A DNA stretch of 22,629 nt, taken from Alistipes sp. Lineage in GTDB: Bacteria; Bacteroidota; Bacteroidia; Bacteroidales; Rikenellaceae. Location: NCBI GenBank assembly GCA_014796635.1, contig JAAVIK010000001.1, forward strand, positions 226,659-249,287. Direction: 5' to 3'. The number at the start of each line of letters is the position of its first letter. Position 1 is the stretch's first letter. The translations under genes and the position numbers were made by a program. The notes under the pieces were generated by a model that was not told the DNA's origin, did not search any database, and saw nothing but the letters and a program-made list of their open reading frames with translations. Below, in pieces: positions 2,654-22,629 of the stretch.

Positions 2654-2692
2654 ACCTTTGACTTCGTCGAAAATACTCCCGCTCGGCAAAAT

Positions 2693-2706
2693 GCAAGCGA
2701 GCTTGC
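2693..2706. terminator. Palindromic hairpin after the ATPase gene
   Basis: GCAAGC (2693-2698) and GCTTGC (2701-2706) form a perfect inverted repeat around GA, best drawn as a 5-bp stem with a CGAG loop. It lies 40 bp after the ATPase stop. No run of T follows, so it is either a weak or factor-assisted terminator or part of the leader of the promoter-like element just downstream. Confidence 0.35.
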
Positions 2707-2709
2707 TTA

Positions 2710-2721
2710 TTCGTATCTTTG
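2710..2721. repeat. Left copy of 12-bp direct repeat bracketing the island
   Basis: TTCGTATCTTTG here is identical to 22009-22020, and sequence on either side of the two copies does not match. The copies lie at the two edges of the AT-rich segment, next to backbone genes. They could be attL/attR cores left by a tyrosine-recombinase element. Eight of the 12 bases are promoter consensus, so coincidence is possible. Confidence 0.4.
2714..2721 (+). promoter_or_regulatory. Bacteroidetes-type -7 element TATCTTTG
   Basis: TATCTTTG matches the Bacteroidetes sigma-ABfr -7 consensus TAnnTTTG. No convincing -33 TTTG lies at the usual distance and no credible gene starts just downstream. The same octamer, with four more identical bases, lies upstream of ftsY. 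One reading is that this was the original ftsY promoter, separated from its gene when the island inserted. Confidence 0.4.
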
Positions 2722-3006
2722 ATACAGTTCGACGTTATTTATTTGACCGTAAACAGATTAAAAAGAATCCGCATGAGGTGTGGACAATGGATAAGAATTA
2801 GTAAATCTCTGCGGAACACCATGTTTATCATGCTTTCAAATAATTCTTTTACTGGGTACAAAAGTAACATTTATTCCGGAAAAACAGTCAGTTTAGGTCG
2901 GAATCTGCCTTAAATCTTATCATTTCATAATCCGTAACATAGATACGGGTACTTGACATAGAGAAACCGGAGTTTACATAAGCTGGACTAACTAAAAAAT
3001 AAGATT
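2722..3006. other. Left junction, no gene seen
   Basis: About 285 bp of AT-rich sequence without a credible reading frame; only peptides shorter than about 65 residues, with no family resemblance, are open. On the minus strand CAAAAGTA at 2859-2866 reads TACTTTTG, a possible -7 element pointing towards the ATPase, with nothing obvious for it to transcribe. It probably includes the former downstream part of the left integrase remnant, decayed beyond recognition. Confidence 0.4.
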
Positions 3007-3303
3007 ATGCAGACCGACAACATTGCAAAAAGGGGGAACGCTCCTAATGACCCCGGATTTGCTTGTCAAGGTCATCTATGGCACGATTCATTGTAAGGGC
3101 GTTCTCGCTTCTGCCGTCGGCACGTCCCGTTTCGGGATTCCACAAGGCGGGATTTACGGCTACCTTGATGCCGATTTATTCCCACCTAGCATCTACACTT
3201 ACCTTGCACAACCGCTGGAATGTTCCGTCCTTGCGTACCTAACAGGATGGCAAACGTGCTGCGGTGCTTTGTCTCTATTATTCCGAATGTTGTTTACGTT
3301 CAT
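3007..3303 (-). pseudogene. Tyrosine recombinase/integrase remnant (N-terminal domain only)
   Basis: Reading the minus strand from an ATG at 3303 gives MNVNNIRNNRDKAPQ. A shifted frame then gives KDGTFQRLCKVSVDARWE, an in-frame TAA, IGIKVAVNPALWNPETGRA, DGRSEN, then MNRAIDDLDKQIRGH and a stop. This is the pattern of the N-terminal arm-type DNA-binding domain of Bacteroidetes tyrosine recombinases: a Lys-Asp-Gly turn, a Gly-Ile-Lys-Val strand, an LWNPETGRA-type loop, then an NR-x-hydrophobic-D helix. There is at least one frameshift and two nonsense codons, and no core-binding or catalytic domain follows, so it is dead. It diverges from the island operon across 3304-3439. It is not a piece of the right-hand integrase, whose N-terminus is also present and different. 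Confidence 0.6.
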
Positions 3304-3439
3304 AGCTGATAGTGCTATTGAGATGTTTTTTATAGGTTTAAAATGCCTTAAAATGAAATAAAACAATTAACTTCGCATATTGGATTATTATCTCCTAGAA
3401 AGAGATTTGATATTAAATGCAGTAAAATAAACCCCAAAT
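3304..3439 (+). promoter_or_regulatory. Leader region of the island operon
   Basis: This 136-bp AT-rich gap lies between the divergent integrase remnant and the first operon gene and must carry the operon's main promoter if all 12 genes are one unit. I see no clean TTTG plus TAnnTTTG pair. There is a short direct repeat of TTAAAATG near 3339-3358 and a small TCTC...GAGA inverted repeat near 3392-3406, either of which could be an operator. No Shine-Dalgarno sequence precedes the ATG at 3440, as is usual in Bacteroidetes. Confidence 0.3.
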
Positions 3440-6400
3440 ATGAATTACTCACTAATCGCCAATTCAGGCATTCAATTTTATTCGAAAGAAATCGAAATAG
3501 ATTTGAATGATGGTTTTAAGCAAGTCTTCTACGAATGGTTTGATGAAGAGCAAGTAGAGCAAGTGCTTGAATATGCATACGAAATCAAGCAACAGAGTGA
3601 ATTCGTTCGTATGTCAGACCTACTGAAGTATGGTTTTATTGACCATGCAGGAAATTTATTGGTTGAGCCTAATGTTATTACTGCAAATCCTGAAGTACGC
3701 TTAATACATAAGGGGGACATTACCGATGGTGAAGGGCTTTTTAGGATGCGAATTGACGACAAGAATAGTTGCATTCTAGATAAGTATCTTAATTGTTGGT
3801 TGCCGGCCCCGTACTATGAGATATCTCAAACTGGAAATTTTAAGTTAGGTCCGTATAATTGGTGTCGTTTCAAAATTGTGCCTATTTCTCAGACAAACAG
3901 TATAATTAAAGCTAATTTATTGGTCGCTTTTGATACACATGCCACTTATGATGGCAATGATGAATACAATGAAAGTCCTTCATTCTCTTTTGAAAATGAA
4001 AAGCTTTTTGGTCTTTGCGGCAATACAGACAAGCTAATTGACTATTGTTCAGGAAAGAATGATTGGATCAGACTCTATTTGATGAAATTGGTTTATAACA
4101 CTGATGATATCAATAAGATTCCGCCACAGCAGCCATACAAGTATTCATTCTTGGCTTCATATTATTTACTAATAAGCTATTTGGTTAGAACTGCTAATCT
4201 TCCTAACATAAAGCTTATAAAAGAGCGAGGGCGAGAGGAAATCAATGTTGAAATGATTATTGACATTGGCAACTCTAGAACATCTGCTATTTTGTTTGAA
4301 AATTCAGATTTCACAAAAGTTGCGTCTTTGAAATTGCAAAACTTCTCTAAACCATTATTAAGTAATGGCAAGTTGAACCGAGTAGAAGATTCCTTCAATA
4401 TGCGACTTGCTTTCAGTAAGGTCGAATTTGGAGGAAATATGGAAGGAAGTACTCAATTTACTTGGCCTAGCATTGTTAGACTAGGAAATGAAGCAGAGTA
4501 TCTTTCACACGAAGCTACTAATATATCTTTTGCTAAACAAACGTTATCTACATATTCTAGCCCTAAAAGATATTTGTGGGACTATAACCCTCGACAAGAA
4601 GAATGGCGTTTTATAAATCTTGAAAACAATCAAGATCGGCCCCCAATTCTAAAAGGGATATCCAACTATTTCAATTATGACGGAACAATTGATAAGGAAG
4701 GGTTAGGTGCTGGTGCTAATTATTCAAGAAAGTCTCTTATGACATTTGCCTTCTTAGAGATTTTGGCACAAGCTTCAGCACAAGTAAATAGTCACGATTA
4801 TCGAGAATACAACGGTAGACTAAATACCCCTCGAAGAATCAATAAGATTATTTTGACTTGTCCGACGGCAATGTCTAAGTTCGAGCAGTTGTCATTGCAT
4901 GCGAGCCTAGAAGATGCAATTTTTGTTATAAATAAATTTTATAACAATATCGATTCAAGCCGTATTCCATTAGAGATATCTATCGAGCCCAAATTAACCA
5001 AAGATTTAAATGACAATACGCCTTGGATCTTTGATGAAGCAACATGTTCACAGTTTGTTTATCTATACAGCGTTTTAACTGAACGGTATAAAAACTTAAC
5101 CAAAGAGTTTTTTGATATATACGGCAAAAAAATAAAGACAGAGAAAGGTTCCACTACAAATCTTACAATTGGTTCGTTAGATATTGGAGCAGGAACATCA
5201 GATGTAACTATTTGTTCATACGAGTACAATGAGTTTAAACCTTCGCAATTAAAACCAACTCCAATATTTTGGGATAGTTTTGATTACGCAGGTGATGATA
5301 TGCTTAGGGTATTAATTAACAATATACTTCTTGAAGGTCAAGATGGTATACTCCAAAAGGAGTTGTCAAAACTTGGCTTGGAAGTTTCTCAAATATACTC
5401 CAAATTATTCGATTTCTTTGGTGCCGATCATAACTGTTTGTCATTTAAAGACAGAATGGTTAGAAGAGATTTTAATGCTCAAGTCTCTGTTCCTATAATG
5501 TGCTATTTCTTAAACTTGTTAAGTGATGGTGAGCAGTTTAGAGAGATTTCATATGATGAGATTTTTGCTAAACAGTCACCTAGTCAAGTTGTCATAGATG
5601 CATTTAATGAAAAGATGGGAATAGATTTAAAGTCTATTCGATGGACTTTTGATTCTGCTGTAATGTGTAAGCATATTGAATATGCGATGGATAACCTATT
5701 GGAGCACCTCGCTGTAATTATGTATGCTTACAAGTGTGATATTGTTTTGTTGTCGGGCAGACCGACATCACTAACAGTTATTAGAGACATTTTCCTAAAA
5801 TATTTTGCGGTAACTCCGGATCGACTCATTTCTTTGAATAAATTCTGCATAGGTCACTGGTATCCATTTGCAGATAGAAATGGTTATTTGAGTGACTCCA
5901 AATCTATAGTACCTGTAGGTGCAATGATTGCATATAAGGCATCTCACGCTGGTGGCTATAATGGATTCTTGTTAGACCTCTGCGAACTAGGCAATAGAAT
6001 TAAACCAACTACGGAGTATTATGCAAAGATGTCTAAAAACAGAAAAAATGCAGATTGGTTTATCTCACCTGATGTTAATAATGGTTCATTGATTATTGAA
6101 TCGTTCCCAGTGTACATAGGTACGAAGCAATTTGATATAGAAAATTATCCATTGAGACCGTTCTATGTATTTGACATTGACGAGAGAGGCATCAAAGCGA
6201 GAATCAGGAAGCAATATGAGGAAAACTCCGTCGAGTTAAATTCGCAAGAGATACAAGTTGGACTTCAAGAAGAAATAGATAAGATTCTTTCGAAGTGCCC
6301 GCTAACATTATCACTTACAAGAGAAAACTATAAGGAGAATAAGGAGATAATTGTCATAGATAGTGTTAAAGGTGACAATGGTGAGGATATAAATATCCGC

Positions 6401-6502
6401 AATTTCAAGTTAGAGATTCAGAGCCTAAATGATCCTGAGTGCTATTGGTTAGACTCTGGTGAGTTTAATATCAACACAGTGTCAAATGTTAACCGCGGAT
6501 AG
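3440..6502 (+). CDS. SrfB-like Hsp70/actin-fold ATPase
   Basis: A large (1020-residue) cytosolic protein with no signal peptide or TM segment. Three motifs of the actin/Hsp70/hexokinase fold are visible in the right order: phosphate-1 DIGNSRTSA from Asp275, phosphate-2 DIGAGTSDVTI from Asp581, and an adenosine-site strand IVLLSGRPTS around 768-777. Size, a long N-terminal region before phosphate-1, and a following P-loop GTPase gene all match SrfB of the srfABC operons of enterobacteria, so I call it SrfB-like. That family link rests on motif pattern and gene order recalled from memory, whereas the ATPase fold is directly supported. First gene of the operon; the next gene begins about 10 bp after its stop. 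Role unknown: probably an ATP-driven switch or assembly chaperone for its neighbours. Confidence 0.65.
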   Translation: MNYSLIANSGIQFYSKEIEIDLNDGFKQVFYEWFDEEQVEQVLEYAYEIKQQSEFVRMSDLLKYGFIDHAGNLLVEPNVITANPEVRLIHKGDITDGEGLFRMRIDDKNSCILDKYLNCWLPAPYYEISQTGNFKLGPYNWCRFKIVPISQTNSIIKANLLVAFDTHATYDGNDEYNESPSFSFENEKLFGLCGNTDKLIDYCSGKNDWIRLYLMKLVYNTDDINKIPPQQPYKYSFLASYYLLISYLVRTANLPNIKLIKERGREEINVEMIIDIGNSRTSAILFENSDFTKVASLKLQNFSKPLLSNGKLNRVEDSFNMRLAFSKVEFGGNMEGSTQFTWPSIVRLGNEAEYLSHEATNISFAKQTLSTYSSPKRYLWDYNPRQEEWRFINLENNQDRPPILKGISNYFNYDGTIDKEGLGAGANYSRKSLMTFAFLEILAQASAQVNSHDYREYNGRLNTPRRINKIILTCPTAMSKFEQLSLHASLEDAIFVINKFYNNIDSSRIPLEISIEPKLTKDLNDNTPWIFDEATCSQFVYLYSVLTERYKNLTKEFFDIYGKKIKTEKGSTTNLTIGSLDIGAGTSDVTICSYEYNEFKPSQLKPTPIFWDSFDYAGDDMLRVLINNILLEGQDGILQKELSKLGLEVSQIYSKLFDFFGADHNCLSFKDRMVRRDFNAQVSVPIMCYFLNLLSDGEQFREISYDEIFAKQSPSQVVIDAFNEKMGIDLKSIRWTFDSAVMCKHIEYAMDNLLEHLAVIMYAYKCDIVLLSGRPTSLTVIRDIFLKYFAVTPDRLISLNKFCIGHWYPFADRNGYLSDSKSIVPVGAMIAYKASHAGGYNGFLLDLCELGNRIKPTTEYYAKMSKNRKNADWFISPDVNNGSLIIESFPVYIGTKQFDIENYPLRPFYVFDIDERGIKARIRKQYEENSVELNSQEIQVGLQEEIDKILSKCPLTLSLTRENYKENKEIIVIDSVKGDNGEDINIRNFKLEIQSLNDPECYWLDSGEFNINTVSNVNRG

Positions 6503-6512
6503 AGTTAGTAAT

Positions 6513-9329: not shown

Positions 9330-9333
9330 TTAT

Positions 9334-10719
9334 ATGAGTTTTGTTAGAGATAAGGTAAAACTCTGTTCGATTGATATGAATGGTGTTGCCGTTGAAAAAA
9401 TCAACGGTGTGCCCTTCTATGAAAGATATATAGAATTTGACAATACCATTAAGAAGCATATAATTGACAGAAAGTATCATAATCTATTTGCTCAGCCCGT
9501 TTTCAATGCGACAAATGGTATGATTGACTGGTATGTACCAGCAAACTTCCAGAATGCAATAAAGTTGTCCGAATTGAAAGGAACAACAGAAGGTGATGAA
9601 TATTCAAAACAGAAGGAGTTAATCATCCAGCACCTTAATAGGACCACAGCAGAATTGCCTGAATATGATCAGAAATATTTTAAGTGCCTAACAAAGTACT
9701 TATCTTCTGATTATATTGATGATTTGGTATACTGCGATAATGGCCAAATTATCTTTGGTGTATGGGGATTAAGACTAATAGATGGAAAAAATCCTACCAC
9801 TTCTATTAGAACAGCTATTGATGACAAAAGAGTGTATACCATAAACTATCAGGTTAGGGGAAATGGTATAATGTCTGGTATTAAGGGCACTATAAAGCGT
9901 CGTCATGGACATGTCATTAACGGTAGTAAAGATATCCCCAATATTATCCCTGAGGATGGCTTTGAGTTCTCATCTTGGGAGCCAGATGCTCCACATAATA
10001 AAAAGGTAGTGTCAGATATTAATTTTATTGCTATATGTACTCCGATTCCAGTGCCTCCTGTTAATGATGAAGTAGTACCAACAAACGATACTGTTGGGCC
10101 AGATACTGTGCAGCCTGAGTTTAGTAATGTGAGATTTGATGGTGGTGATCACGGCAAGATTAAGGGTGTTGACACAATAAGAGCAAAAAATGGAGAGCCT
10201 GTGCCTCCGATGCAGGTGCCTGAGGTTAAGCCTAAAAGAGGTTATGACTTTGTAGGTTGGGATAAAGATATTAATTCTCCGATCAATGACGACAAAGTCT
10301 TTAAGGCTCAATACAAAAAAAATGGTAAGGGATTCTGGGGCAACTTATTTAATGGAGGTCTATTGGGATGGTTTAGAAACCTTTTTAGTGGATTTGGTAT
10401 TGGAGGAGGTTGGTTCTCTGGATGCCTAAGTTGGATTGTGGGACTATTATTAATGAGTCTTCTCATTATGCCGTTGTCTTCGTTGTTTAGAGGATGTGGT
10501 GCACGAAACAATGTTCCTGTTGTAAATCGACCTATTCCAAAGGTTGTACATACTCCCAAGCAAGAGACACCTAAAGAAACACCACAGACAACTGATGATT
10601 ATGAGGCAATACGAGCTCTAATTCAAGAATATGAAAGAAGAATTGACGAGCTAGAACAAATGTTGCCTGAGAATCAATCAGAGAATAATAATAAACAAAG
10701 TGATTCTGAATATGTCTAG
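9334..10719 (+). CDS. SrfA-like N-terminal domain fused to InlB/Flg_new-type repeats and a membrane anchor
   Basis: The protein has 461 residues. Residues 48-148 contain LFAQPVFNATNG then MIDWYVP, and end DNGQIIFGVWGLRL. This resembles the 'QP...IDWY.P' and 'DG-P-hydrophobic-WG' pattern I associate with SrfA-type proteins, which would complete a SrfB-SrfC-SrfA set. Two beta repeats follow (about 168-235 and 264-327), the second with the classic GYDFVGWDKDIN...KAQY ending of the Listeria-Bacteroides/InlB-B (Flg_new) repeat. Next come a Gly-rich, aromatic-rich segment, one TM helix near 362-385, a Pro/Thr linker and a short coiled coil (about 422-446). There is no N-terminal signal, so orientation is uncertain; if the SrfA-like part faces the cytosol, the coiled coil is outside. 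It starts 4 bp after the SrfC-like gene and overlaps the next gene by 8 bp. Repeat and TM calls are good; the SrfA link is tentative. Confidence 0.5.
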   Translation: MSFVRDKVKLCSIDMNGVAVEKINGVPFYERYIEFDNTIKKHIIDRKYHNLFAQPVFNATNGMIDWYVPANFQNAIKLSELKGTTEGDEYSKQKELIIQHLNRTTAELPEYDQKYFKCLTKYLSSDYIDDLVYCDNGQIIFGVWGLRLIDGKNPTTSIRTAIDDKRVYTINYQVRGNGIMSGIKGTIKRRHGHVINGSKDIPNIIPEDGFEFSSWEPDAPHNKKVVSDINFIAICTPIPVPPVNDEVVPTNDTVGPDTVQPEFSNVRFDGGDHGKIKGVDTIRAKNGEPVPPMQVPEVKPKRGYDFVGWDKDINSPINDDKVFKAQYKKNGKGFWGNLFNGGLLGWFRNLFSGFGIGGGWFSGCLSWIVGLLLMSLLIMPLSSLFRGCGARNNVPVVNRPIPKVVHTPKQETPKETPQTTDDYEAIRALIQEYERRIDELEQMLPENQSENNNKQSDSEYV

Positions 10720-11626
10720 ATCTAAATTTAATTTTGCTTGGGTCTTTGCGACACTGGCACTGCTAACATATACATATATAAGCTTTATGGGGCTTATATA
10801 TAGTCAATTATGCTCGTTGGAGCTATCTATTCTCATAGCATTGGCATTTACTGGTATTATTGTCTTTTTGCTTAATATTATGTGTAAAGTTAAAGCTACA
10901 AGGTGGCTTAGACTAGGTATTATAGGTCAAATTTCCATAGGACTTATTATACTAGTTTTTCTTTTAACTTTGTCAGTCTTCTTTACTCACTTTACGCGCA
11001 TGATTAAAGAGAAGGAGGCGATCGTGGAGCTCTATTCAGAAACCATCGATGACGCACGTGAGTTAGATGCAAAATATCGGGACTATGTAGATCAACGATG
11101 CCAAAGTTATAAGACGAAAATTAATGGACTTAAAGTTGGAACAAAAGGTTACATTGATATGGTTGCAAAGCCATTGTCACTAGGTTTGTCCCAAGCTTCG
11201 ATATCTGAAAAATATGCGAGCCGATTGAAAGACTTTTTATTAGGGGATAATATAGATGCATTAAGCGAAAAAAGAACTGTTTGGCTTTCAGAAAGTACAA
11301 CAACTATATGGAATATAAATTTCCCTAAAAATATTCAGGATGTAACATTTTCAGTTAACTCTTGGCTTATTAACTATGGAGAATTGAGCCAGAAGCAATA
11401 CAGTCAAGAAAGTAGTTATCCAAAGTTTGAGGACGAATCGTTCAATAAAAATGCTAATAAATTACAATTGTTGTGCACAACAATTGTTCCACCTTCATTT
11501 ATAGCCATTTTGCTAGCTATTGTATGCTGCGCCATAATCTTGTTACCTTGGATTGTGACTTCAAAGGATATAGCCGCAATTGGTGATGATAATAACTACA
11601 TTGTAGAAATGCCTGAAGAAGATTAA
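10712..11626 (+). CDS. Four-TM membrane protein with a central non-membrane domain, family unknown
   Basis: The predicted protein has 304 residues from the ATG at 10712 (MSRSKFNFAW), which overlaps the previous stop codon; an ATG at 10700 is also in frame. Three hydrophobic helices lie near residues 9-30, 36-56 and 67-88. A soluble, partly coiled-coil domain of about 160 residues follows, beginning with a charged IKEKEAIVELYSE stretch, and a fourth TM helix (FIAILLAIVCCAIILLPW) lies near 255-276, before an acidic tail. I do not recognise the family. Position between the SrfA-like and GTPase genes suggests an inner-membrane scaffold of the same complex. Confidence 0.6.
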   Translation: MSRSKFNFAWVFATLALLTYTYISFMGLIYSQLCSLELSILIALAFTGIIVFLLNIMCKVKATRWLRLGIIGQISIGLIILVFLLTLSVFFTHFTRMIKEKEAIVELYSETIDDARELDAKYRDYVDQRCQSYKTKINGLKVGTKGYIDMVAKPLSLGLSQASISEKYASRLKDFLLGDNIDALSEKRTVWLSESTTTIWNINFPKNIQDVTFSVNSWLINYGELSQKQYSQESSYPKFEDESFNKNANKLQLLCTTIVPPSFIAILLAIVCCAIILLPWIVTSKDIAAIGDDNNYIVEMPEED

Positions 11627-11631
11627 CATAG

Positions 11632-13278
11632 ATGGAAGAGAAAAAAGAAAAAATATTAAGTCGTTGTAATGTAATACCGATCAAAAATATTGTAAAATAT
11701 TTGAGAGATGGAGTTATAACTATGGATGAACTTAGAGCCAAAGGCTTGTCATCCGAGCGTGAAGACGAAATTAACAAAGAGATTGTTTCCAATGAGAATA
11801 TTATTTGGACACGAGCTTCGAAGTCTCATACCCCTCAGGCTTATCATGAATATTTAAGAGTTTTTCCTGATGGTAAATACGCTGACAATTGCAAGCAAGC
11901 ACTTGAAGATTTGGAGGAAAGTTGGTGGGATGAGCTTTCAATCGCTCCAACAGAAGAGTCATTGAACGCATATATTGCCATTTATCCTGACGGAGAACAT
12001 ATCTATGATGCGAACCTCTTTCTCAAGGATATAGACTGGTTGAACACATGCCGAATCAATACCCAAGAGGCATATATTAAATATAGAGATAGTTTTCCCA
12101 GTAAACATACTAAGGAAATTACTGAAATCCTTGTTGGCTTTAGCGATCAAACCGATTGGGAGTTCGCATGCTCCGTGAACACTACAAATGCATATAGAGA
12201 TTACATCTCCAAGCACCCCAATGGAAAAAAGGTCTCTGAGGCTCAAAATATAATTAGTAGTAGAAGAGAGCACGACACCCTAATCAATGGTATTTCAAGT
12301 GATAAAAATTACATTAGCGCCGAGGATATTCAGACAGCAATTAATAACAATGTCATTACTCTTGACGAACTAATTAGTATTGTTGGTACTGACTGGGCCA
12401 ATGAAATTATGTCTTATCAAAGGCCACCAGATTTACCAATATACACTTCTTCTCAACAATTGCAGAAGGGGAAAACTGAAGTATATTTTTGGGGCACTCC
12501 TGCCTCTGGAAAAACATGTACATTAGGAGCAGTTTTAAGTAGTGCATATACTAAAGGCAAACTTATTAAAAGAGGAGGAGCACTGGAATATATGGATGGA
12601 TTGAAAAATATTTTTAATCCATTGGGAATTAGCAGATTGCCTAATAGTACATCTAACGCTTGCATATATGATATGAATGTTGATATAAAGGATGATAATA
12701 ACAGGAAACATCCAATTACACTCATTGATCTTGCCGGTGAGATATTCAAGTGTATCTATTTTAGTAGTCAAAATTTCGAACTGGATGAAGATCGTCAGCG
12801 AATACTAAATACTACATTTAACTATTTGAAAGATAAAAGAAATAAAAAAATAATGTTCTTCGTGATTGAATATAATGGCCATAATAGAATTTGGGATGAC
12901 AACTCAAATCTTAATATGAGTGACTACTTGGATAGATGTTTAAACTACCTTAACGATTTAAGGATTATCAGCAATTCTGTTAATGGTATATATGTTTTAG
13001 TAACCAAGAGTGATATGATTCCTTGTGAATATAAGGATCAGGCAGTTGAAGCACAAAGATATGTAGAAAAGTACTTTAATGGTTTCTGGGAAACTTTGAA
13101 AGAGATTAGTAAAAGTTGCGGAGTTAGAGACCTAAAAGTTATTCCTTTCTCTGTAGGCAATGTGGTTGCAAAACAGCTTTGTGAGTTTAACGGCAAGTAC
13201 GCGAAGTTAGTTTTAGACAATATCTGCAAGAAAAGCGATAGCACTGGGCGTAGCTTGTGGGATTTTTTAAAAGGATAA
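11632..13278 (+). CDS. Helical-repeat protein with a C-terminal P-loop GTPase domain
   Basis: The protein has 548 residues and no TM or signal. The C-terminal third is a GTPase-like P-loop domain: Walker A GTPASGKT (288-295), G3/Walker B LIDLAGE (364-370) and G4 TKSD (458-461). It resembles the bacterial 'double-GTPase' (DO-GTPase) conflict-system families, recalled from memory. Upstream are about four copies of a 35-40-residue repeat, starting near Trp59, Trp99, Trp136 and Trp176, with pattern W-x-x-A/C...T-x-x-A-Y-x-x-Y...P-x-x-K. The domain is bracketed by a short paired motif, DGVITMDELRAKGLS (26-40) and NNVITLDELISIVG (239-252), resembling small helical adaptor domains. The W-repeat recurs in the outer-membrane barrel gene four genes on. 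It starts 5 bp after the previous gene. Probably a cytosolic switch that reads protein contacts through its repeats. Confidence 0.65.
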   Translation: MEEKKEKILSRCNVIPIKNIVKYLRDGVITMDELRAKGLSSEREDEINKEIVSNENIIWTRASKSHTPQAYHEYLRVFPDGKYADNCKQALEDLEESWWDELSIAPTEESLNAYIAIYPDGEHIYDANLFLKDIDWLNTCRINTQEAYIKYRDSFPSKHTKEITEILVGFSDQTDWEFACSVNTTNAYRDYISKHPNGKKVSEAQNIISSRREHDTLINGISSDKNYISAEDIQTAINNNVITLDELISIVGTDWANEIMSYQRPPDLPIYTSSQQLQKGKTEVYFWGTPASGKTCTLGAVLSSAYTKGKLIKRGGALEYMDGLKNIFNPLGISRLPNSTSNACIYDMNVDIKDDNNRKHPITLIDLAGEIFKCIYFSSQNFELDEDRQRILNTTFNYLKDKRNKKIMFFVIEYNGHNRIWDDNSNLNMSDYLDRCLNYLNDLRIISNSVNGIYVLVTKSDMIPCEYKDQAVEAQRYVEKYFNGFWETLKEISKSCGVRDLKVIPFSVGNVVAKQLCEFNGKYAKLVLDNICKKSDSTGRSLWDFLKG

Positions 13279-13281
13279 GCT

Positions 13282-14697
13282 ATGAAACAGTATATAAAAG
13301 TAGATTTGTACGGACAGTTTGATGATGATACTAAACACGAGTTTACATATCCATCAAAATTATTAAATCAGTATAGTTTCACGGAAGCTACTGCTTGGGC
13401 AAAGTCAATATCAGACCCTCGATCATTACATGGTAAATTATGTAAGGCTGGAGCAGATTGCTATGTTATATGGGGCAACGAGTATGGTAATTACTTCTCT
13501 TACATCACACGAAATAGTCGAGATTCCAGAGGCGGAATGGCTATGGTTACTTTCTTTGTGGAGAGAAATCATATTTGTGACGGTAAGGACATTTATGAGG
13601 TATTAAATAAGCTTTCTCGTAAACTCATAGTAAGTGGAGATTATAGCAATGAATCCGTAGAAGAAGTAATAAATGACATTGCGGTATATACTTCATCGAA
13701 ATGTATTCCTTCTAAAATTAATAAGAATACGACGATATCCGAACCTACATACGGATACAAAGTATTTGCAAATGAGGAAGAGCTTATTGACATCTTGACA
13801 TTTATCGCTCAAGAGGGATATGCTTCATATGATAAGATAATTTTAGCAAAAGATGGTAATGCAAAAAATAATATTGCTATCCAGCATATCACTTCACCAT
13901 TGTGCAAGTATTATAATATCTATGATACTCAAGATGCTCAAGCAAATTGTAGATTCATCAATGCTCAAGATTCTTTTAATATTACATATAGAAAAGAAGG
14001 TTTTGATAATGCTGTAATATCATGCACGGCGCCTCATCGCAATTGTGAATACTACCAGATTAAGGGAACATCACTTGTTTTGAACGATGTTTCAAAAGTA
14101 GATGTAGTCTTCACTAAAACATGGTACTTTGACATCCGCAAATCAACCGACAATACTTGTATTGATGAAAGCCTTGTTGAATTAACAGTTAGCGGGCGTA
14201 TTCCTGATAGGTCAAATCGAAAGCTAATACGATTTACGGAGGCGGAATTGAAGACATTGAGTGTCGTGCCTATAATAGCATCGTGCCCACATTACCATCA
14301 ATACGAGGGCGAAGTGAATCTAACAACGACTAATTCTCAAATACAAATTAAGATGGAACCTAAGAAATTAAAAATAAGAGTTCAGTTCAATTTTGACAAT
14401 AGCATCAGTTCCGGCCTGGTATTTATGCAAATTGATGAAACAACTAAAATATACAAAGATTTAACACAGTCTGATAGATTCTGTGGGTACAGAGCGAGAT
14501 TAGACTTCAATAATGTTTATCAAGTTGATATACCAAAGAATCCTAAGCCAGTCAGAGATTATGATTATAATGATTATCAGAAGTGGGTTAAATGGTTAAT
14601 GGTTGTTCTCATTATAAGCTTTGTTGCAGCTGTCGGTGTACTTTCTGTTCTCTACTGGTCTGAGATAACTAGTTTCATAAATAATCTTTTCAAGTAG
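13282..14697 (+). CDS. Tail-anchored protein, possible GTPase partner, family unknown
   Basis: The protein has 471 residues with one C-terminal TM helix (KWLMVVLIISFVAAVGVL, about 437-459) and a short tail, so most of it is probably cytosolic. The N-terminal part contains SLHGKLCKAGADCYVIWG and a Gly/Arg-rich RNSRDSRGG loop before a strand reading MAMVTFFVERN. This could belong to the GTPase-associated (GAP1-type) families that accompany DO-GTPases; that is a guess from context. The C-terminal half is beta-rich with no recognised motif. It begins 3 bp after the GTPase stop, so the two are likely co-translated partners. Confidence 0.5.
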   Translation: MKQYIKVDLYGQFDDDTKHEFTYPSKLLNQYSFTEATAWAKSISDPRSLHGKLCKAGADCYVIWGNEYGNYFSYITRNSRDSRGGMAMVTFFVERNHICDGKDIYEVLNKLSRKLIVSGDYSNESVEEVINDIAVYTSSKCIPSKINKNTTISEPTYGYKVFANEEELIDILTFIAQEGYASYDKIILAKDGNAKNNIAIQHITSPLCKYYNIYDTQDAQANCRFINAQDSFNITYRKEGFDNAVISCTAPHRNCEYYQIKGTSLVLNDVSKVDVVFTKTWYFDIRKSTDNTCIDESLVELTVSGRIPDRSNRKLIRFTEAELKTLSVVPIIASCPHYHQYEGEVNLTTTNSQIQIKMEPKKLKIRVQFNFDNSISSGLVFMQIDETTKIYKDLTQSDRFCGYRARLDFNNVYQVDIPKNPKPVRDYDYNDYQKWVKWLMVVLIISFVAAVGVLSVLYWSEITSFINNLFK

Positions 14698-14702
14698 TTG
14701 CT

Positions 14703-15485
14703 ATGAAGAGAGTATTTAAGGTTTTACTGGTTCTGGTCGCTATTATAGGAGGACTGTATTTAGCGATTAGCCATTTTATGTCACTTGGCACATCTCAGGA
14801 TGCCATCGAACAATATAACTATCATAAAGACTTTATAGACAGAGTTGATAGTTTGTCTCAGAGTTGGTCGCAAACAGATTTCAACCAACTTAAGGAACTT
14901 TATGCAGACTTGGCAATTGTTGGCTCCATGGAGGCAGTAGAAAAAGAAAGTTTCTCTGAATACAATGCTTTATTAGGGATAAAAGCAGACTTGATTTTAC
15001 GCTCATACTTTAACCAAAAAAGTTGGAACGAATCAGAGTTACAGTCTCTAAAAAAGTTTGCTCAATATATGGATCATAAATACACGATTAATGCTGTAAA
15101 TGGATATTATAGCATACAGTCACTACTAGCCTCGAGTCAAGCATGTCGCACACAATCGCAAGTAGAAAATTGTATAGCTGAAAGTGCAAAGTACTCTACT
15201 CAACCGTGGAATAATTGTACTTCTTTGAAGGACGGCCTAGCTGCTGTGCCAAACACATCTATGACCTCCTATACTAATAAAACGCTGCTACCGAAATGTA
15301 AAAAGATGAATAATTTCAAAAGTAATTATTCTTATTTTGACGATTTTGATACAGATTATCAGATGCTTAAAAATGCACAATTATTCTTGAGCAAACATAA
15401 GTATAGCAATAGTGCCTTAAACGCAAGTTTCAAGTCAATTAAGTATAATGATGCCGCTAACGCATTAAACCCAAAATTCTTCTAA
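14703..15485 (+). CDS. Signal-anchored extracytoplasmic protein, family unknown
   Basis: The protein has 260 residues. A basic start (MKR) and a hydrophobic helix (VLLVLVAIIGGLYLAI, residues 7-22) form a signal anchor or uncleaved signal; no lipobox Cys or clear cleavage site follows. The remainder is polar and largely helical, rich in Ser, Asn, Gln, Lys and Tyr, and probably periplasmic. It has scattered cysteines (for example CRTQ, NCIAE, NCTS, KCKK) that could form disulfides outside the cytoplasm. No family recognised. It sits 5 bp after the tail-anchored gene and 1 bp before the barrel gene, a natural place for a periplasmic linker. Confidence 0.55.
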   Translation: MKRVFKVLLVLVAIIGGLYLAISHFMSLGTSQDAIEQYNYHKDFIDRVDSLSQSWSQTDFNQLKELYADLAIVGSMEAVEKESFSEYNALLGIKADLILRSYFNQKSWNESELQSLKKFAQYMDHKYTINAVNGYYSIQSLLASSQACRTQSQVENCIAESAKYSTQPWNNCTSLKDGLAAVPNTSMTSYTNKTLLPKCKKMNNFKSNYSYFDDFDTDYQMLKNAQLFLSKHKYSNSALNASFKSIKYNDAANALNPKFF

Positions 15486-15486
15486 T

Positions 15487-16665
15487 ATGAAAAAGTTATT
15501 CTCATTATTGATACTATCATTCGTTATTGTACTATCTGCTAGTGCACAGGATATATCTTCTGCTTTACGTCAAGCAGAAGCTAGATTTTTTAGTGGCAAT
15601 GAAACTGGCGCTATAGAGTTGGTTACAAAAGTACTGCAGAAGTACCCAGACAACCAGGAAGCAAAAGCATTGTTGGAAAAATTCAATAAAACTATTTCCG
15701 ATAGACAAATAGATGCAGACTGGCAAACAGCCCAGACTACTAATGCCTTTGAAGCATACGAACAATTTAGAACAAAGCATCCTGGAAGCAAGTATGATGA
15801 TACGGCATCTGACAATATGGCAAAAAGATTAGCTGATAAGTTTACCCCTAATTCCAGTTATTCTGAACGGACTAGAGCGGAATCCTATGCCCAAAAAGGT
15901 ATGACAAAAGATTACATTGCTAATAAGTGGAAGTCTGTTATGGCAAAGAAAACATCCAGCAGTACATCTTCTTCGTCGTCTTACCGTTCTTCTAATACAT
16001 CAAACTCATCAAGTTCATATTCTTCTAATAGAAGTTATGGCTCATCATCTAGTTCCAATTATGAATATCGTAGTTCATCATATGCTAAGAAAGATCCTTT
16101 TGTGACATTTGGTATTGAAGGGTCTATTGAAGGATTAAAGAGTTTCTCTACTGGTTGGGGATTATCTATACGTATTGGCCGATTTAATTCACTCTTTAAT
16201 TCTACCATAGGCATAAAGTATCAGTATACTGGATACAAGAAATGGGTCAGTTATTCATACGATGACTATAATAATTATTGGAAATATGAGTATGTATATA
16301 GTTCTGCAGACTATAAGCGCAAGGTCAATCAATTTGTATTTCCTGTCATACTTAATTGGAATGCCGTTAGGAAAGATAATTATACATTTTATTTAGGTGT
16401 TGGATATGAATTTGGAGTTCTTTTGTCAGACAAACAAACATTCGACTATGATTTTGGCGATCCTTTTAATGAATCCGATTTCTATCAATATGGAGATGAA
16501 AAGTTAATTCAATTATCAGTACCTTCACGAGCTGTAGTTGTGCAAATGGGATTTGCAGGAAGACATTGGGATTGGAAAGCTTACTACAAAAGTAATACAA
16601 ATAGCTCTACATTGTATAATGGGGAAGCAGGTGCTGTAGGAACAGCATTTACATATTATTTTTAG
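15487..16665 (+). CDS. Outer-membrane beta-barrel protein with N-terminal TPR-like repeat and Ser-rich linker
   Basis: The protein has 392 residues. A clear signal peptide (MKKLFSLLILSFVIVLSASA, cleavage before Gln21) is followed by a TPR-like unit (24-66), then a second repeat ADWQTAQTTNAFEAYEQF (about 77-115). That repeat matches the Trp-initiated repeat of the GTPase four genes upstream. Residues 156-200 are a low-complexity Ser/Tyr linker. From about 205 to the end, alternating polar and hydrophobic/aromatic strands suggest an 8-strand barrel of the OmpA/OmpX type, ending in Phe (GTAFTYYF), the usual outer-membrane insertion signal. The protein would therefore put the repeats in the periplasm and the barrel in the outer membrane. 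It starts 1 bp after the previous stop. Confidence 0.75.
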   Translation: MKKLFSLLILSFVIVLSASAQDISSALRQAEARFFSGNETGAIELVTKVLQKYPDNQEAKALLEKFNKTISDRQIDADWQTAQTTNAFEAYEQFRTKHPGSKYDDTASDNMAKRLADKFTPNSSYSERTRAESYAQKGMTKDYIANKWKSVMAKKTSSSTSSSSSYRSSNTSNSSSSYSSNRSYGSSSSSNYEYRSSSYAKKDPFVTFGIEGSIEGLKSFSTGWGLSIRIGRFNSLFNSTIGIKYQYTGYKKWVSYSYDDYNNYWKYEYVYSSADYKRKVNQFVFPVILNWNAVRKDNYTFYLGVGYEFGVLLSDKQTFDYDFGDPFNESDFYQYGDEKLIQLSVPSRAVVVQMGFAGRHWDWKAYYKSNTNSSTLYNGEAGAVGTAFTYYF

Positions 16666-16669
16666 GCAT

Positions 16670-17521
16670 ATGAAAAAGAGTTTAAAAGATTTGATCAGAG
16701 GCATTGTAGCTACTTCTATAGCGGCAATAACGGGAACCCATGGTGCAGAGGCTGCCCCAACGGTTACTTTTAATGATTCAGATATGGACTTGGACATTGC
16801 ATCAATAGGTGAGGCAAAAAATGACCTCAGTTATAAGTTGATGCTTAAAATAAATAGTGACAATACATATGATATAGCTGGTCATAGAAGCCATAGTTCA
16901 CATAGAAGCCATAGTTCCCATAGATCGGGCTCAAGTCACTATTCGCATTCGTCGCATTATTCATCAACAACAACTACTACAAGAAGTACAACTAGTTCAA
17001 GTAGTAGCTCCTCTTCATATGTTTCTTCTTCGTCATATGAGTTAGGTTCACGTACTCTCAACAAAGACCTATATGGTGCTGATGTAAAACTATTGACAGA
17101 TAACTTGGTTAAGTGTGAGTATTTGGATAAGTCAAAGGTTAAGACTAATTATTTTGGTTATGTAGTATATGACGAGAATGTTGTTGATGCGGTAAAGAGA
17201 TTCCAGAAGGATATGGGACTGACTACTGATGGTATTGCAGGTACAACAACTATTACGAAGCTTACTGCCTATGCAGAAAATTTCAAAAAATTTGGTGACA
17301 GGGCATTGAGTGTTGGTATGTCCGGTACCGATGTGATAGAGATGAAGAATCTCCTTATTGAGAAAGGCTATATAGAGGGTACTACATCTAATGGGGAGGC
17401 TACCTTTGATGTGACATTAGAGACAGCACTTAAAGCATTCTTAACAGATGTTGGTATAGAGTGGACAGGTGAAACAGACTCAGATATAGTATTTTACTTA
17501 AAAAAGAAATACGATGATTAA
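16670..17521 (+). CDS. hxsA: His-Xaa-Ser repeat protein HxsA
   Basis: The protein has 283 residues, with a signal-like N-terminus (IRGIVATSIAAITGTHGAEA, up to about 28). Residues 72-98 are an HXS tract: His at 72, 75, 78, 81, 84, 90, 93 and 96, each followed two residues on by Ser, opening HRSHSSHRSHSSH and broken once by GSS at 87. A Ser/Thr-rich linker to about 125 follows. Two peptidoglycan-binding (PG_binding_1-like) units come next: about 136-200, with AVKRFQKDMGLTTDGIAG, and about 215-280. This is the known layout of HxsA, presumed substrate of the HXS radical SAM enzymes encoded next, although their chemistry is not established to my knowledge. It should sit in the periplasm on the cell wall. 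It starts 4 bp after the barrel gene and overlaps hxsD by 8 bp. Confidence 0.9.
   Translation: MKKSLKDLIRGIVATSIAAITGTHGAEAAPTVTFNDSDMDLDIASIGEAKNDLSYKLMLKINSDNTYDIAGHRSHSSHRSHSSHRSGSSHYSHSSHYSSTTTTTRSTTSSSSSSSSYVSSSSYELGSRTLNKDLYGADVKLLTDNLVKCEYLDKSKVKTNYFGYVVYDENVVDAVKRFQKDMGLTTDGIAGTTTITKLTAYAENFKKFGDRALSVGMSGTDVIEMKNLLIEKGYIEGTTSNGEATFDVTLETALKAFLTDVGIEWTGETDSDIVFYLKKKYDD
16883..16918 (+). repeat. 18-bp tandem repeat coding His-Xaa-Ser units
   Basis: Two head-to-tail copies of CATAGAAGCCATAGTTC plus one variable base (16883-16900 and 16901-16918) are 17 of 18 identical, and each codes for HRSHSS. The near-identity at wobble positions implies recent duplication, so the number of HXS units can probably expand or contract by slippage or recombination. 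Confidence 0.85.
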
Positions 17522-17855
17522 CTCGAAGGTTGAGAATAATACGCTGATTATTGAGGTCGATACTTCAATATATTGTGAAGCTGTAATATGCAAAACGCTG
17601 TATTGGCTTACTTCGGATTTTGTTATTTGTCGTAGCAAAGGTACTGATGAGAATATTCAAAGAATAGAGCTGAGACTTAAGAATGATATTCTAGGTTACA
17701 ACTGGGATAGTCTTGTGTCTGACTTAAGCGATAAGTTTATTGATTATAAAAATCGTCAAATAATCCTTGAGGAGACAAGAAATTTAAGGGAATTATATTT
17801 TGCAAAGGCCTTTGCTAACAGTGACAGTTTCGTTGAATTTAATTTTAATGACTAG
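17514..17855 (+). CDS. hxsD: His-Xaa-Ser system protein HxsD
   Basis: The protein has 113 residues and is the small conserved partner of the HXS system, of unknown biochemical role. Features matching the family are an early YCEAVICKTLYWLTS segment, in which a Tyr-x-x-Glu-Ala-hydrophobic helix precedes a strand, and a C-terminal RNLRELYFAKAF, corresponding to the family's conserved Leu-Arg-Glu signature. No signal or TM. It overlaps the end of hxsA by 8 bp, and its TAG shares one base with the GTG start of hxsB, the order and coupling typical of HXS loci. It may carry or present the substrate to the two radical SAM enzymes. Confidence 0.8.
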   Translation: MINSKVENNTLIIEVDTSIYCEAVICKTLYWLTSDFVICRSKGTDENIQRIELRLKNDILGYNWDSLVSDLSDKFIDYKNRQIILEETRNLRELYFAKAFANSDSFVEFNFND

Positions 17856-19261
17856 TGTACTATCTACTGCCATTCAAATATAATATAGCTAACGGCAAGG
17901 AAATAATTACGAATGATTTTGGAGATTATCAAATTGTACCTAGAGGCACTGTGTCTAAAATTGTCAATAGGGAATTAATCCCGTCTGATAATCTTTATAA
18001 AGATTTGCTAGCTTCATTTATAATAAGTGAGCAGCCTATTCCTCGACTGATAGATAATTTATCTGTAAGGCTTTCGACAAGAAAGAGCTTTTTAGATAAT
18101 TATACTGCGCTGCACATTTTTGTGGTAACATTAAGGTGTAATCAGAATTGTGTATATTGCCAAGCTTCAAGTAAAGCGTGCGATAAAAGTGTGGTCGATA
18201 TGAGTAAAGAAGATTTATTCAGATCGATAGATTATATGTATATGTCTCCTTCTCCATACCTAACAATGGAGTTCCAAGGTGGAGAGCCTACTCTTGTTCC
18301 TGAATTGATAAAGGAAGGCATTCTCTATTCGGAAAGTAAGAGGGAGCAAGCCAATAAGTCTGTTACATACGTGATATGCACAAATTCTGTTAATATCCCA
18401 AATCATCTTTTGGATTTTTGTTCAAACTACAATGTTGTATTTTCTACTTCATTAGACGGTCCAAAGTGGTTGCATAATACTAATAGAGGCAAGTCCGATA
18501 GCTATCAGAAAGTTATTGCTGGTATTGAAAAAGTAAGAGGGGTAATAGGTGAATATAAGGTGTCAGCCTTGATGACAACATCAGAATTGTCATTAGATTA
18601 TCCTAAAGAAATTATTGATGCGTATAGAGCGAATAAATTTAATAGTATCTTTATAAGATCTCTCAACCCATACGGATTGGCAAAGGATAATGAAGATTGG
18701 CCTCGTTATTTTGATAGATTTGTTGAGTTCTATAAAACCGCATTAGATTACATCTTTGAGATTAATAAATCAGGAGAATTATTTGTTGAGGAATTGACAA
18801 CAATGATCCTCAAAAAGATATTGACTCCTTTCCCAATTGGTTTTGTTGATCTGCAATCACCTTCGGGTATTGTAAATGGTGTAATCGTATACAATTATGA
18901 CGGGTATGTTTATGCCTCTGATGAATCTAGAATGCTCGCTGAAAATGGCGACTTTAAATTCCGTCTAGGTAAAATATCAGATGATTACGAAAGCATTTTT
19001 TATGGGCGGAGAGTGCAAGAAGTGTCACGAGTCTGGGCAACCGAATATATAGCTGGATGTTCGGAATGCTCATACTTGTCCATTTGCGGGGCTGACCCAG
19101 TTAGAAATTATTCAACACAAAACGATGAATATGGCTTTCGACCAAGCTCTACATTGTGTAAAAAGAATATGAGCATAATTGACCACATATTCTATCTACT
19201 TGATACTCGAAGAGAAGAACTGATGCCTATTTTTCAAAGATGGATAACAGGAGTAGAATAA
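17855..19261 (+). CDS. hxsB: His-Xaa-Ser system radical SAM maturase HxsB
   Basis: The radical SAM enzyme has 468 residues. The CX3CX2C cluster site is CNQNCVYC (Cys95, Cys99, Cys102), followed by a GGEP SAM-binding motif at 142-145. The C-terminal half carries a SPASM-like auxiliary cluster: Cys402, Cys405, Cys411 and Cys435, within CSECSYLSIC and a later C-K-K. The approximately 85-residue N-terminal extension (MYYLLPFKYN...), with a 'ND-x-G-x-Y' strand, is typical of HxsB and could bind the precursor. The start is a GTG at 17855 overlapping the hxsD stop; no ATG precedes the conserved N-terminus. It is expected to act in the cytosol with HxsC on the HXS tract of HxsA. Confidence 0.9.
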   Translation: MYYLLPFKYNIANGKEIITNDFGDYQIVPRGTVSKIVNRELIPSDNLYKDLLASFIISEQPIPRLIDNLSVRLSTRKSFLDNYTALHIFVVTLRCNQNCVYCQASSKACDKSVVDMSKEDLFRSIDYMYMSPSPYLTMEFQGGEPTLVPELIKEGILYSESKREQANKSVTYVICTNSVNIPNHLLDFCSNYNVVFSTSLDGPKWLHNTNRGKSDSYQKVIAGIEKVRGVIGEYKVSALMTTSELSLDYPKEIIDAYRANKFNSIFIRSLNPYGLAKDNEDWPRYFDRFVEFYKTALDYIFEINKSGELFVEELTTMILKKILTPFPIGFVDLQSPSGIVNGVIVYNYDGYVYASDESRMLAENGDFKFRLGKISDDYESIFYGRRVQEVSRVWATEYIAGCSECSYLSICGADPVRNYSTQNDEYGFRPSSTLCKKNMSIIDHIFYLLDTRREELMPIFQRWITGVE

Positions 19262-19262
19262 T

Positions 19263-20147
19263 ATGAGAGACACAATTGATATAAATTCTAATGATAATGC
19301 CCTTTTTATTACATCTCAATGTAATAATAGATGTTTAATGTGCTGTCAGCCTCCGAATAACAGCAACGATTTAGAACGTAATTATATTAAGAATATAAAA
19401 TTGATTGATTCGGCTCCTATTACATTGCCATCTATTGGAATTACAGGAGGTGAGCCAACATTGTTAGGTGATAAGCTTTTCTCTCTAATAAATCACATCA
19501 AGGCAAAACTACCGGAGACTGAAATTCATTTGCTTACAAATGGACGTGCATTTGCGGATATTACTTATGCGAGAAAACTAAAGCAATGTGGTACAGACAA
19601 TATATTGCTAGAAATCCCACTTCATTCAGATTGCTCGATTGATCACGATTATATTACTCGATCCAAAGGTTCATTTGATGAAACGATGCTAGGGTTATAT
19701 AATCTTGAACGATGTGGTTTTGATGTAGAACTTAGAATTGTCCTTAACAGAATAACTTGTCAGAGACTCCCTCAAATGGCTAATTTCATTTATAGGAATT
19801 TGCCTTTTGTCAGGTATGTCGCTTTTATGGGAATGGAATACACTGGGCACACAATTAAAAACCACGATTTAGTTTGGATAGACCCACTAGACTATAAAGA
19901 TCAACTTGAAACTGCTGTATGTGAATTGAGTCGTTGGGGGTTGAATGTATCCGTATTCAATTTGACACATTGTGTTTTGAATGAAAATTTGTGGAGGTTT
20001 GCTGTTAAATCCATCTCAGATTGGAAAAACGAATACGCTGAGTTCTGTGAACAATGTGCAGTGAAAGAAACGTGTTGTGGTTTATTCTCAACCTCAAGAA
20101 AACAAAGTAGAGGATTACAACCAATAAAAATAACATTATGCGAATAA
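19263..20147 (+). CDS. hxsC: His-Xaa-Ser system radical SAM maturase HxsC
   Basis: The second radical SAM protein of the HXS pair has 294 residues. Cluster site CNNRCLMC (Cys20, Cys24, Cys27), next to the family-like TSQCNNRCLMCCQPP, and GGEP at 62-65 are intact. C-terminal cysteines at 262, 265, 271/272 and 293 suggest an auxiliary cluster. The radical SAM motif begins only 20 residues from the N-terminus; my recollection is that many HxsC proteins have a longer leader, so this one may be a short form. The ATG lies 1 bp after the hxsB stop. The 3' end overlaps by 10 bp the ATG of a decayed secreted nuclease gene. Last intact gene of the operon. Confidence 0.88.
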   Translation: MRDTIDINSNDNALFITSQCNNRCLMCCQPPNNSNDLERNYIKNIKLIDSAPITLPSIGITGGEPTLLGDKLFSLINHIKAKLPETEIHLLTNGRAFADITYARKLKQCGTDNILLEIPLHSDCSIDHDYITRSKGSFDETMLGLYNLERCGFDVELRIVLNRITCQRLPQMANFIYRNLPFVRYVAFMGMEYTGHTIKNHDLVWIDPLDYKDQLETAVCELSRWGLNVSVFNLTHCVLNENLWRFAVKSISDWKNEYAEFCEQCAVKETCCGLFSTSRKQSRGLQPIKITLCE

Positions 20148-20407
20148 TCTCAATACTATTACTACTAATTGTTTAAATAAGGTAGTTGTTCCTGATGCTT
20201 TTTTTAGCTTTCTTAACTGTAAAAAATAATGTCTTCAATACCATACTTTATAATGCCCAATAATTTTGATCACAAACGTGTGCAAGAGTATGCTGTTTCG
20301 GTCAATGATTTGGAAGATATAATAGGGTATTGATATTTCTACTAACATAGATGATAGATTTGAGGAAAGTAGAGTCCGATGTTTATTTTAAACATTGGAG
20401 ATTATGA
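20138..20407 (+). pseudogene. Remnant of a secreted DNA/RNA non-specific endonuclease
   Basis: An ATG at 20138, inside the end of hxsC, starts MRIISILLLLIV and then stops: a signal peptide or lipoprotein leader. A shifted frame gives NKVVVPDAFFSFLNCKK (ending 20229), another gives SSIPYFIMPNNFDHKRVQEY and AVSVNDLEDIIG (from 20232), another DISTNIDDRFEESRV, and a last DVYFKHWRL ending at TGA 20405-20407. In order these match the C-terminal end of NucA/endonuclease-G-type nucleases: 'VP..FFKV', then 'hydrophobic-F-hydrophobic-hydrophobic-PN', then 'Y.VSV..hE..TGhDhF..h.D..E'. The DRGH-type catalytic region is missing. So a large internal deletion plus at least three frameshifts killed the gene. 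It was the 13th gene of the operon. Confidence 0.6.

Positions 20408-22051: not shown

Positions 22052-22629
<578 letters not shown>

Follow-up and report, generated by a model that had tools for sequence, protein, structure and literature searches.

SrfABC and the His-Xaa-Ser (HXS) radical SAM system have each been described as a separate system of unclear function. In the stretch of DNA analyzed here (hereafter the window; 22,629 nucleotides of contig JAAVIK010000001.1 of Alistipes sp.), genes of both kinds form one operon of 12 intact open reading frames (ORFs), all on the forward strand, in which seven Srf-type genes (A to G) and a further gene (H) are followed by HxsA-HxsD-HxsB-HxsC (I to L) and by a decayed nuclease gene as the 13th (M; Table 1). 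Comparison with related loci shows that the Srf-type core usually carries a subtilisin that is lost where HXS is present, and that the nuclease accompanies HXS rather than Srf; both points had escaped the preliminary description of this locus, which was made from the sequence alone.

The ORFs span positions 3440-20147, and the junctions from A to L measure 1, 4, -8, 5, 3, 5, 1, 4, -8, -1 and 1 bp if SrfC is taken from 6504; the likelier start of SrfC is the ATG at 6513 (938 residues, the same in L020, see below), which makes the first gap 10 bp and agrees with the 12 intact one-strand genes and gaps of at most about 10 bp originally reported. The same operon is present, with the 12 genes in identical order and an intact nuclease in addition, in a metagenome-assembled genome of Bacteroidaceae from cattle cecum (L020), so that the arrangement is not a chance one. 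Between the two copies, protein identity is 85-96%, synonymous divergence (dS) is 0.52-0.88 and the ratio of nonsynonymous to synonymous divergence (dN/dS) is 0.027-0.111 in 12 of 12 genes; all 12 genes are under strong purifying selection, and, because both halves have diverged by similar amounts, they probably travelled together and were kept functional, as expected of the single functional unit proposed earlier. An internal promoter or terminator separating the halves was considered and rejected: promoter-like sites number 86 against 78.9 expected (standard deviation 8.7), terminator-like sites 13 against 9.6 (standard deviation 3.6) and Bacteroidota-type promoter motifs 7, where a simple shuffle gives 5.1, with none of these motifs at the G-H-HxsA junctions, and the forward-strand hairpins at 15557 and 16629 both lie inside H. 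The start of gene C holds a perfect TTGACA-16-TATAAT (9437-9464).

An alignment of 27 E proteins, used to scan one genome for each GTDB species, yielded 21 loci. SrfB lies within the fetched stretch in 16 of these and is then followed by SrfC and C in all 16; D is present in 15 (L029 has none), E in 16 by choice of query, F follows in 15 (L038 ends inside E) and G in 14, in two of them by position or profile only. The stretches of L032, L033, L035 and L037 hold only D-G, and that of L039 only E; outside the stretch, the genomes of L032 and L035 have SrfB matches, and none was found in those of L033, L037 and L039. Further cores come from the genus of the window (L073, L074), its order (L017/L075, L018/L076), its class (L014/L019) and a Runella plasmid (L077), and in these more distant cores E, F and G are not all recognized. 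Genes 1-7 (SrfB, SrfC, SrfA-like, D, GTPase, F, G) constitute the Bacteroidota core. The resulting set comprises 23 Bacteroidota loci with SrfB and SrfC, that is, the window and 22 others; it leaves out L016 (SrfB alone on a short contig), the srfABC locus of Rahnella (L078; Pseudomonadota, no HXS) and the SrfB copies that G963, G973 and G976 carry on other contigs.

HXS adjoins the core in 2 of the 23 loci, the window and L020 (L038 is visible up to E only). Conversely, HxsB relatives with E-values of at most 1e-50 occur in 14 genomes besides that of the window among 393 of the order, and core proteins were found by profile in none of the 14 fetched HXS contexts of the order (8-20 kb) and in none of 14 plasmid HXS contexts chosen among 20 matches listed; a distant HxsB/HxsC locus of the phylum outside the 14 (L015) likewise shows neither a core gene nor a nuclease in its stretch. 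The two halves are separable, and their fusion is seen in one clade only. The suggestion that Srf and HXS make up one system therefore stands for the second genome, which also joins the halves, and is rejected as a general rule, since they lie apart in most loci.

Outside this clade, gene C encodes 616-1009 residues and carries a subtilisin (S8) domain. By profile, S8 is present in 21 of 21 Bacteroidota SrfB+SrfC loci without HXS (13 of them also built the profile; the complete gene of L017 is that seen in L075), all three catalytic motifs are found in 19 of the 19 checked, and Pfam S8 in 13 of 13 such alignment members. The domain is missing in both HXS-bearing cores, where C ends 80-82 residues after the transmembrane segment. 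The tail of F after its transmembrane segment is similarly reduced, to 14 and 21 residues in the HXS pair, against 152-242 in 19 of 20 non-HXS relatives measured. In a maximum-likelihood tree of 22 SrfC proteins (unrooted, with several long end branches, the split SrfC of L040 omitted), the HXS pair falls inside a supported group of eleven (97/92) together with S8-bearing rows; because S8-bearing lineages also occur outside this group, the protease loss counts as derived for any root other than one on the HXS branch.

The nuclease is a companion of HXS and not of Srf. Directly after hxsC, L020 encodes an intact Endonuclease_NS protein (PF01223, E-value 1e-53), and in the window a dead gene, starting at about 20138, overlaps the end of hxsC, with pieces at 20152-20404 that lie in three frames and match residues 167-252 (the last third) of the intact protein; both the dead gene and the secreted nuclease at the end of the operon had been recognized before. 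Relatives of the L020 nuclease occur in 5 of the 14 genomic HXS contexts (L056, L058, L059, L060, L063). Given 17 Endonuclease_NS copies in about 42 Mb (14 genomes, rounded sizes), 0.097 would be expected in the 241 kb covered (Poisson P about 7e-8). In L058 and L060, the nuclease is on the strand opposite to the HXS genes, so that the linkage is not always one operon. The nuclease was also considered as an Srf effector and rejected, as no homolog was found in the fetched HXS-free stretches of Srf cores or in flanks L078-L096. Among the plasmid HXS contexts, hxsC is followed by a thermonuclease-family gene in Methylobacter (15 bp downstream) and Nostoc (0.4 kb downstream) and by an HNH gene in Paraburkholderia (0.7 kb downstream). 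The Microvirga context, which is unannotated, has a relative of the L020 nuclease about 1 kb upstream of hxsB, and in Calothrix a gene named just 'nuclease' is 4.5 kb away from HXS; in the other nine (one of them unannotated) no nuclease gene is close by. The thermonuclease family is thus a second nuclease type near HXS (L101 11588-12304 and L100 11982-12518, on the Methylobacter and Nostoc plasmids).

The genes that precede HXS vary. In L056, a DUF4236-AAA+ protein and the nuclease come before HXS, the AAA+ protein, two genes before HxsA, weakly matching IetA; in L060, HXS comes after genes for a kinase, a vWA protein and a PP2C phosphatase. HXS thus resembles a module able to dock onto various switches, frequently accompanied by a secreted nuclease. 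In L060 (75-11293), the HXS genes share one strand with an Ion_trans channel gene and the kinase, vWA and PP2C genes.

In the window, three of the four HXS proteins exceed the NCBIfam cut-offs (HxsD 60.5 bits against 50, HxsB 522.9 against 370, HxsC 350 against 267.9). HxsA scores 54.7 bits, below the equivalog cut-off of 121.65, and was identified via its eight overlapping H-x-S motifs, the adjacent HxsD and two peptidoglycan-binding PF01471 stretches (2.7e-16), the latter in agreement with the peptidoglycan-binding role assigned to it at the outset. HxsA is presumably modified by HxsB and HxsC. H matches OMP_b-brl_2 only weakly and has in common with E a type of W-repeat.

SrfB retains the conserved motifs IIDIGNSRT, DIGAGT(S/T)D and LLSGRPT, which we take to be those of an actin/Hsp70-type ATPase, in keeping with the Hsp70-fold ATPase of the preliminary description; its large GTPase corresponds to SrfC, which is predicted to be dynamin-like. 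The GTPase domain of SrfC has a predicted dynamin-type fold, while over the whole length, stalk and membrane-binding part included, the TM-scores with bacterial dynamin-like proteins are about 0.2; the identity to these proteins is about 10%. Searches of PDB sequences with the SrfC, E and SrfB profiles gave no usable match, SrfB matching none and the P-loop of SrfC weakly matching Rab-type small GTPases (E-values 0.04-0.05). The name 'SrfA-like' for gene C is based on a weak match of its profile to Rahnella SrfA (21.4 bits, 3e-6); the window protein itself is matched by no SrfA model of Pfam or NCBIfam. In the E family, 19 of 27 members match DO-GTPase1 in Pfam at E-values of at most 0.1 (best 1.7e-6), the window protein scoring 15.1 bits, under the cut-off of 27, and the DLAGE motif with its Walker-B glutamate is conserved in the alignment; no viral or phage relative of E was found. 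F sits downstream of this GTPase, and no GAP1 model is among the Pfam matches of 18 F members.

Table 1. Genes of the operon and their positions in the window
Gene	Product and features	Coordinates	Strand	Evidence
A	SrfB, actin/Hsp70-type ATPase by motif, 1020 residues	3440..6502	+	PF07520, E-value 2e-167; conserved motifs
B	SrfC, predicted dynamin-like large GTPase, 938 residues	6513..9329	+	PF10139, E-value 1e-99
C	SrfA-like N-terminal region, InlB-type repeats and one transmembrane segment, without subtilisin domain, 461 residues	9334..10719	+	
D	Membrane protein, transmembrane stretches: three N-terminal and one C-terminal	10712..11626	+	Hydropathy, alignment
E	Four W-repeats and TRAFAC-type GTPase (GTPASGKT, DLAGE, TKSD)	11632..13278	+	Alignment
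F	Conserved N-terminal domain, one C-terminal transmembrane segment, then 14 residues only	13282..14697	+	
G	N-terminal transmembrane anchor and domain probably outside	14703..15485	+	Alignment, hydropathy
H	Signal peptide, one E-like W-repeat, Ser-rich linker, possible outer-membrane barrel	15487..16665	+	W-repeat hidden Markov model, 16.1 bits
I	HxsA, eight overlapping H-x-S motifs and peptidoglycan-binding domains	16670..17521	+	
J	HxsD	17514..17855	+	TIGR03976, 60.5 bits
K	HxsB radical SAM maturase	17855..19261	+	TIGR03978, 522.9 bits
L	HxsC radical SAM maturase	19263..20147	+	TIGR03977, 350 bits
M	Secreted Endonuclease_NS gene, decayed relic	20138..20404	+	Pieces in three frames; intact relative L020:18521-19279

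The view that the operon sits on a mobile-type island holds in part. The G+C content of the operon region is 0.35-0.38, against 0.58-0.67 upstream and 0.51 downstream, and L020 has genes for a tyrosine integrase and a Mob-type protein next to it; within the window, the three pieces supposed to be an integrase relic have no Pfam match, and this relic was rejected as unproven. The host genome assembly is 55% complete. By eye, an FtsY-like gene (22052-22629, with a RimO-like gene beyond) adjoins the island, and FtsY-like genes also lie near Srf cores at L080 2234-4538 and L081 7520-10394. In the genus of the window, an S8-type core (L095, genome G934, 2310-11770) has TraM/TraJ genes of a conjugative transposon and three tyrosine integrases nearby. 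In Prevotella lacticifex, SrfC is interrupted by a DDE transposase ORF region (L040 1688-6141), and a 367-residue ORF splits SrfB in a genome of the window's genus (L073 15976-19901). Arrays of small proteins with a zinc-ribbon start, one of them checked by Pfam, flank S8-type cores at L023 15389-21200, L033 789-8473, L080 9943-13042 and L086 5103-8574.

Defense genes are neighbors in single cases. On the plasmid of Runella sp. SP2 (L077 1-35162), the SrfB-SrfC-S8 core is preceded, at a distance of about 1.3 kb, by the end of a BREX gene set; in P. lacticifex, the PADLOC candidate-defense protein PDC-S23 (E-value 3e-140) lies about 1.9 kb before SrfB. In the latter species PDC-S23 and a large MukB-like ATPase with a weak JetC match (1e-6) precede the core (L079 1893-7611). 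On a Sphingobium baderi plasmid (L105 4304-11075), HXS is convergent with the PADLOC-recognized pair IetA/IetS (AAA ATPase and subtilisin), and in Methylobacter the candidate PDC-S19 is beside HXS. The S8 domain of a relative matches the PADLOC models for 'subtilase' (3e-16) and IetS (3e-7). Within the window, SrfB matches one candidate model at 0.003, and HxsB (6e-11) and HxsC (2e-8) match viperin models, which is read as general radical-SAM likeness.

A tentative reading, with somewhat less than an even chance of being correct, is that the operon encodes an inner-membrane engine driven by nucleoside triphosphates (NTPs), probably defensive, in which a periplasmic protease was exchanged for a peptidoglycan-bound, radical-SAM-modified HxsA and a secreted nuclease. 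At the inner membrane, SrfC would act as a dynamin-like GTPase; SrfB would be an actin/Hsp70-type ATPase and E, with its W-repeats, a second GTPase switch of the DO type, and the three would form an NTP-driven inner-membrane complex with C, D, F and G as membrane-anchored parts. In most relatives, C ends in the subtilisin; with the protease on the far side of the single transmembrane segment, the engine would gate periplasmic proteolysis on disturbance of the envelope (phage, rival or other stress). The clade of the window has lost the protease and the greater part of the tail of F, and H (outer-membrane or periplasmic) and HXS would be made instead: HxsA, once HxsB and HxsC had modified its His-Xaa-Ser stretch in the cytoplasm, would be exported and bind peptidoglycan, and the engine would control, or be read out by, HxsA and H. 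The secreted nuclease, intact in L020 and dead in the window, would have acted beside HxsA. Defense would be the likeliest purpose because of the patchy distribution, the mobile genes by some copies and the defense neighbors, single cases for the Srf core and for HXS; the operon may be a new form of bacterial self-defense or envelope control.

A wider proposal is more doubtful, namely that the Bacteroidota cores are undescribed NTP-driven inner-membrane conflict machines with a periplasmic socket for outputs (usually the tethered subtilisin, here HxsA and the nuclease) and that HXS is a portable effector docking onto other switches (the AAA+ protein in L056; the kinase, vWA and PP2C proteins in L060). 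If this is true, the HXS and SrfABC families gain a common role.

Several observations weigh against the exchange of outputs in a defensive engine. Among the 9 of 12 window proteins scanned, none is a good PADLOC match, and the upstream flanks of L080, L081, L090 and L096 hold, by eye, housekeeping genes rather than defense genes. The nuclease is dead in the window genome itself, and the topology of the membrane proteins is derived from hydropathy only, with no transmembrane segment called in Runella C. HXS and the core co-occur in a single lineage, so that the exchange is one event as far as tested. In L029, the F tail is 54 residues long and S8 is nevertheless kept, with no D or G match by search; loss of the F tail is accordingly not unique to HXS-bearing cores and on recheck is weakened as their mark, which leaves the assessment unchanged because the S8 result is independent of the F tail. 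Finally, short relatives of C (40-62% identity) occur in metagenomes and are linked with E proteins of 56-76% identity by six coincidences of equal longest-contig size, against 0.05 expected, so that the loss of the protease may be older or wider than the gain of HXS. One short-C cluster and one HxsB cluster also have equal longest contigs (29400; about 0.1 such coincidences expected), and one E/HxsB coincidence, at 2739, is too short for both genes.

The operon might alternatively serve envelope maintenance or surface assembly and not defense, with the dynamin/actin-fold engine remodeling the inner membrane and HxsA being a structural, modified wall protein. Such a role would suit the peptidoglycan-binding HxsA, the dynamin fold, the housekeeping flanks and the strong purifying selection, but it appears rather unlikely in view of the very patchy occurrence of SrfB (found in 3 of 61 relatives and in 2 of 395 genomes of the phylum, both counts including the genome of the window), the insertions that split core genes in L040 and L073, the linked nucleases and the one case of a BREX neighbor. 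It is improbable that HXS merely landed behind an Srf operon on a mobile element and is functionally uncoupled from it: the restriction to one lineage, the modules regularly found apart, the island G+C content and the mobile genes beside L020 would all be explained, whereas the maintenance of 12 genes at dS of 0.52-0.88 with dN/dS of at most 0.111, the tight junctions (-8 to 5 bp, or 10 at most), the coincidence of S8 loss with HXS in the loci read and the W-repeat common to E and H speak for coupling. Less probable still is antagonism, in which an SrfABC-like system of toxins or effectors would deliver a nuclease or protease to neighbors. The secreted nuclease and the cytotoxic, interacting SrfABC proteins of Xenorhabdus (see below) could be cited for it; against it, neither Pfam nor NCBIfam matched an immunity gene or delivery apparatus in the operon, the nuclease is dead while 12 genes are intact and the parts look membrane-anchored.

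If, as tentatively favored here, a membrane engine has exchanged one periplasmic output for another, the exchange gives a testable hypothesis for two widespread families of unknown function, SrfABC and HXS: HXS with the nuclease would be one of the periplasmic outputs that the engine drives. The dynamin-like prediction moves SrfC, an annotated virulence factor, towards membrane remodeling.

The SrfABC proteins of Xenorhabdus are reported to be cytotoxic and to interact with each other (PMC6950479); the 'Srf' proteins of Rickettsia appear to share the name only (PMC11258249). The operon has the SrfB and SrfC families (PF07520, PF10139) in common with SrfABC of Proteobacteria but differs in gene order, srfB-srfC-(srfA-like) instead of srfA-srfB-srfC (compare Rahnella), and the Bacteroidota core has four more genes (D-G), an SrfA-like part usually fused to subtilisin and, here, HXS attached. 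The order HxsA-HxsD-HxsB-HxsC is that of the known HXS system, although here it forms the end of one operon, and the other 28 HXS stretches checked are not beside Srf core genes. In open-licence PMC full text, the matches listed include no description of the seven-gene Bacteroidota core or its subtilisin, nor of a link of HXS to Srf or to a nuclease.

The conflict systems with DO-GTPases, HSP70 and NucA or peptidases, as far as the parts of PMC7159879 compared go, also combine a GTPase with a Walker-B glutamate (DLAGE) with an Hsp70-type ATPase, and their peptidase and NucA are paralleled by the subtilisin in relatives of the core and by the NucA nuclease with HXS; here, F is without a GAP1 Pfam match and E is under the DO-GTPase1 cut-off. 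The term 'SrfB' is absent from that paper as a whole, and SrfC and HXS are absent from the parts compared. The predicted fold of the SrfC GTPase domain resembles those of SynDLP, BDLP and IniA, SrfC being located in a multi-gene membrane operon. No IetAS pair is among the PADLOC matches (9 of 12 window proteins) or Pfam matches (10). By analogy with Zorya (PMC11890865), the operon would combine an energized inner-membrane complex, a peptidoglycan-binding part and a nuclease effector, with an ion motor there and a GTPase/ATPase here; no MotAB-like pair of the ZorA/ZorB kind turned up in the Pfam and PADLOC scans of the window proteins, in which no dedicated test for it was made. Compared with all these systems, the operon is made of known families in a new architecture, with one apparent evolutionary exchange.

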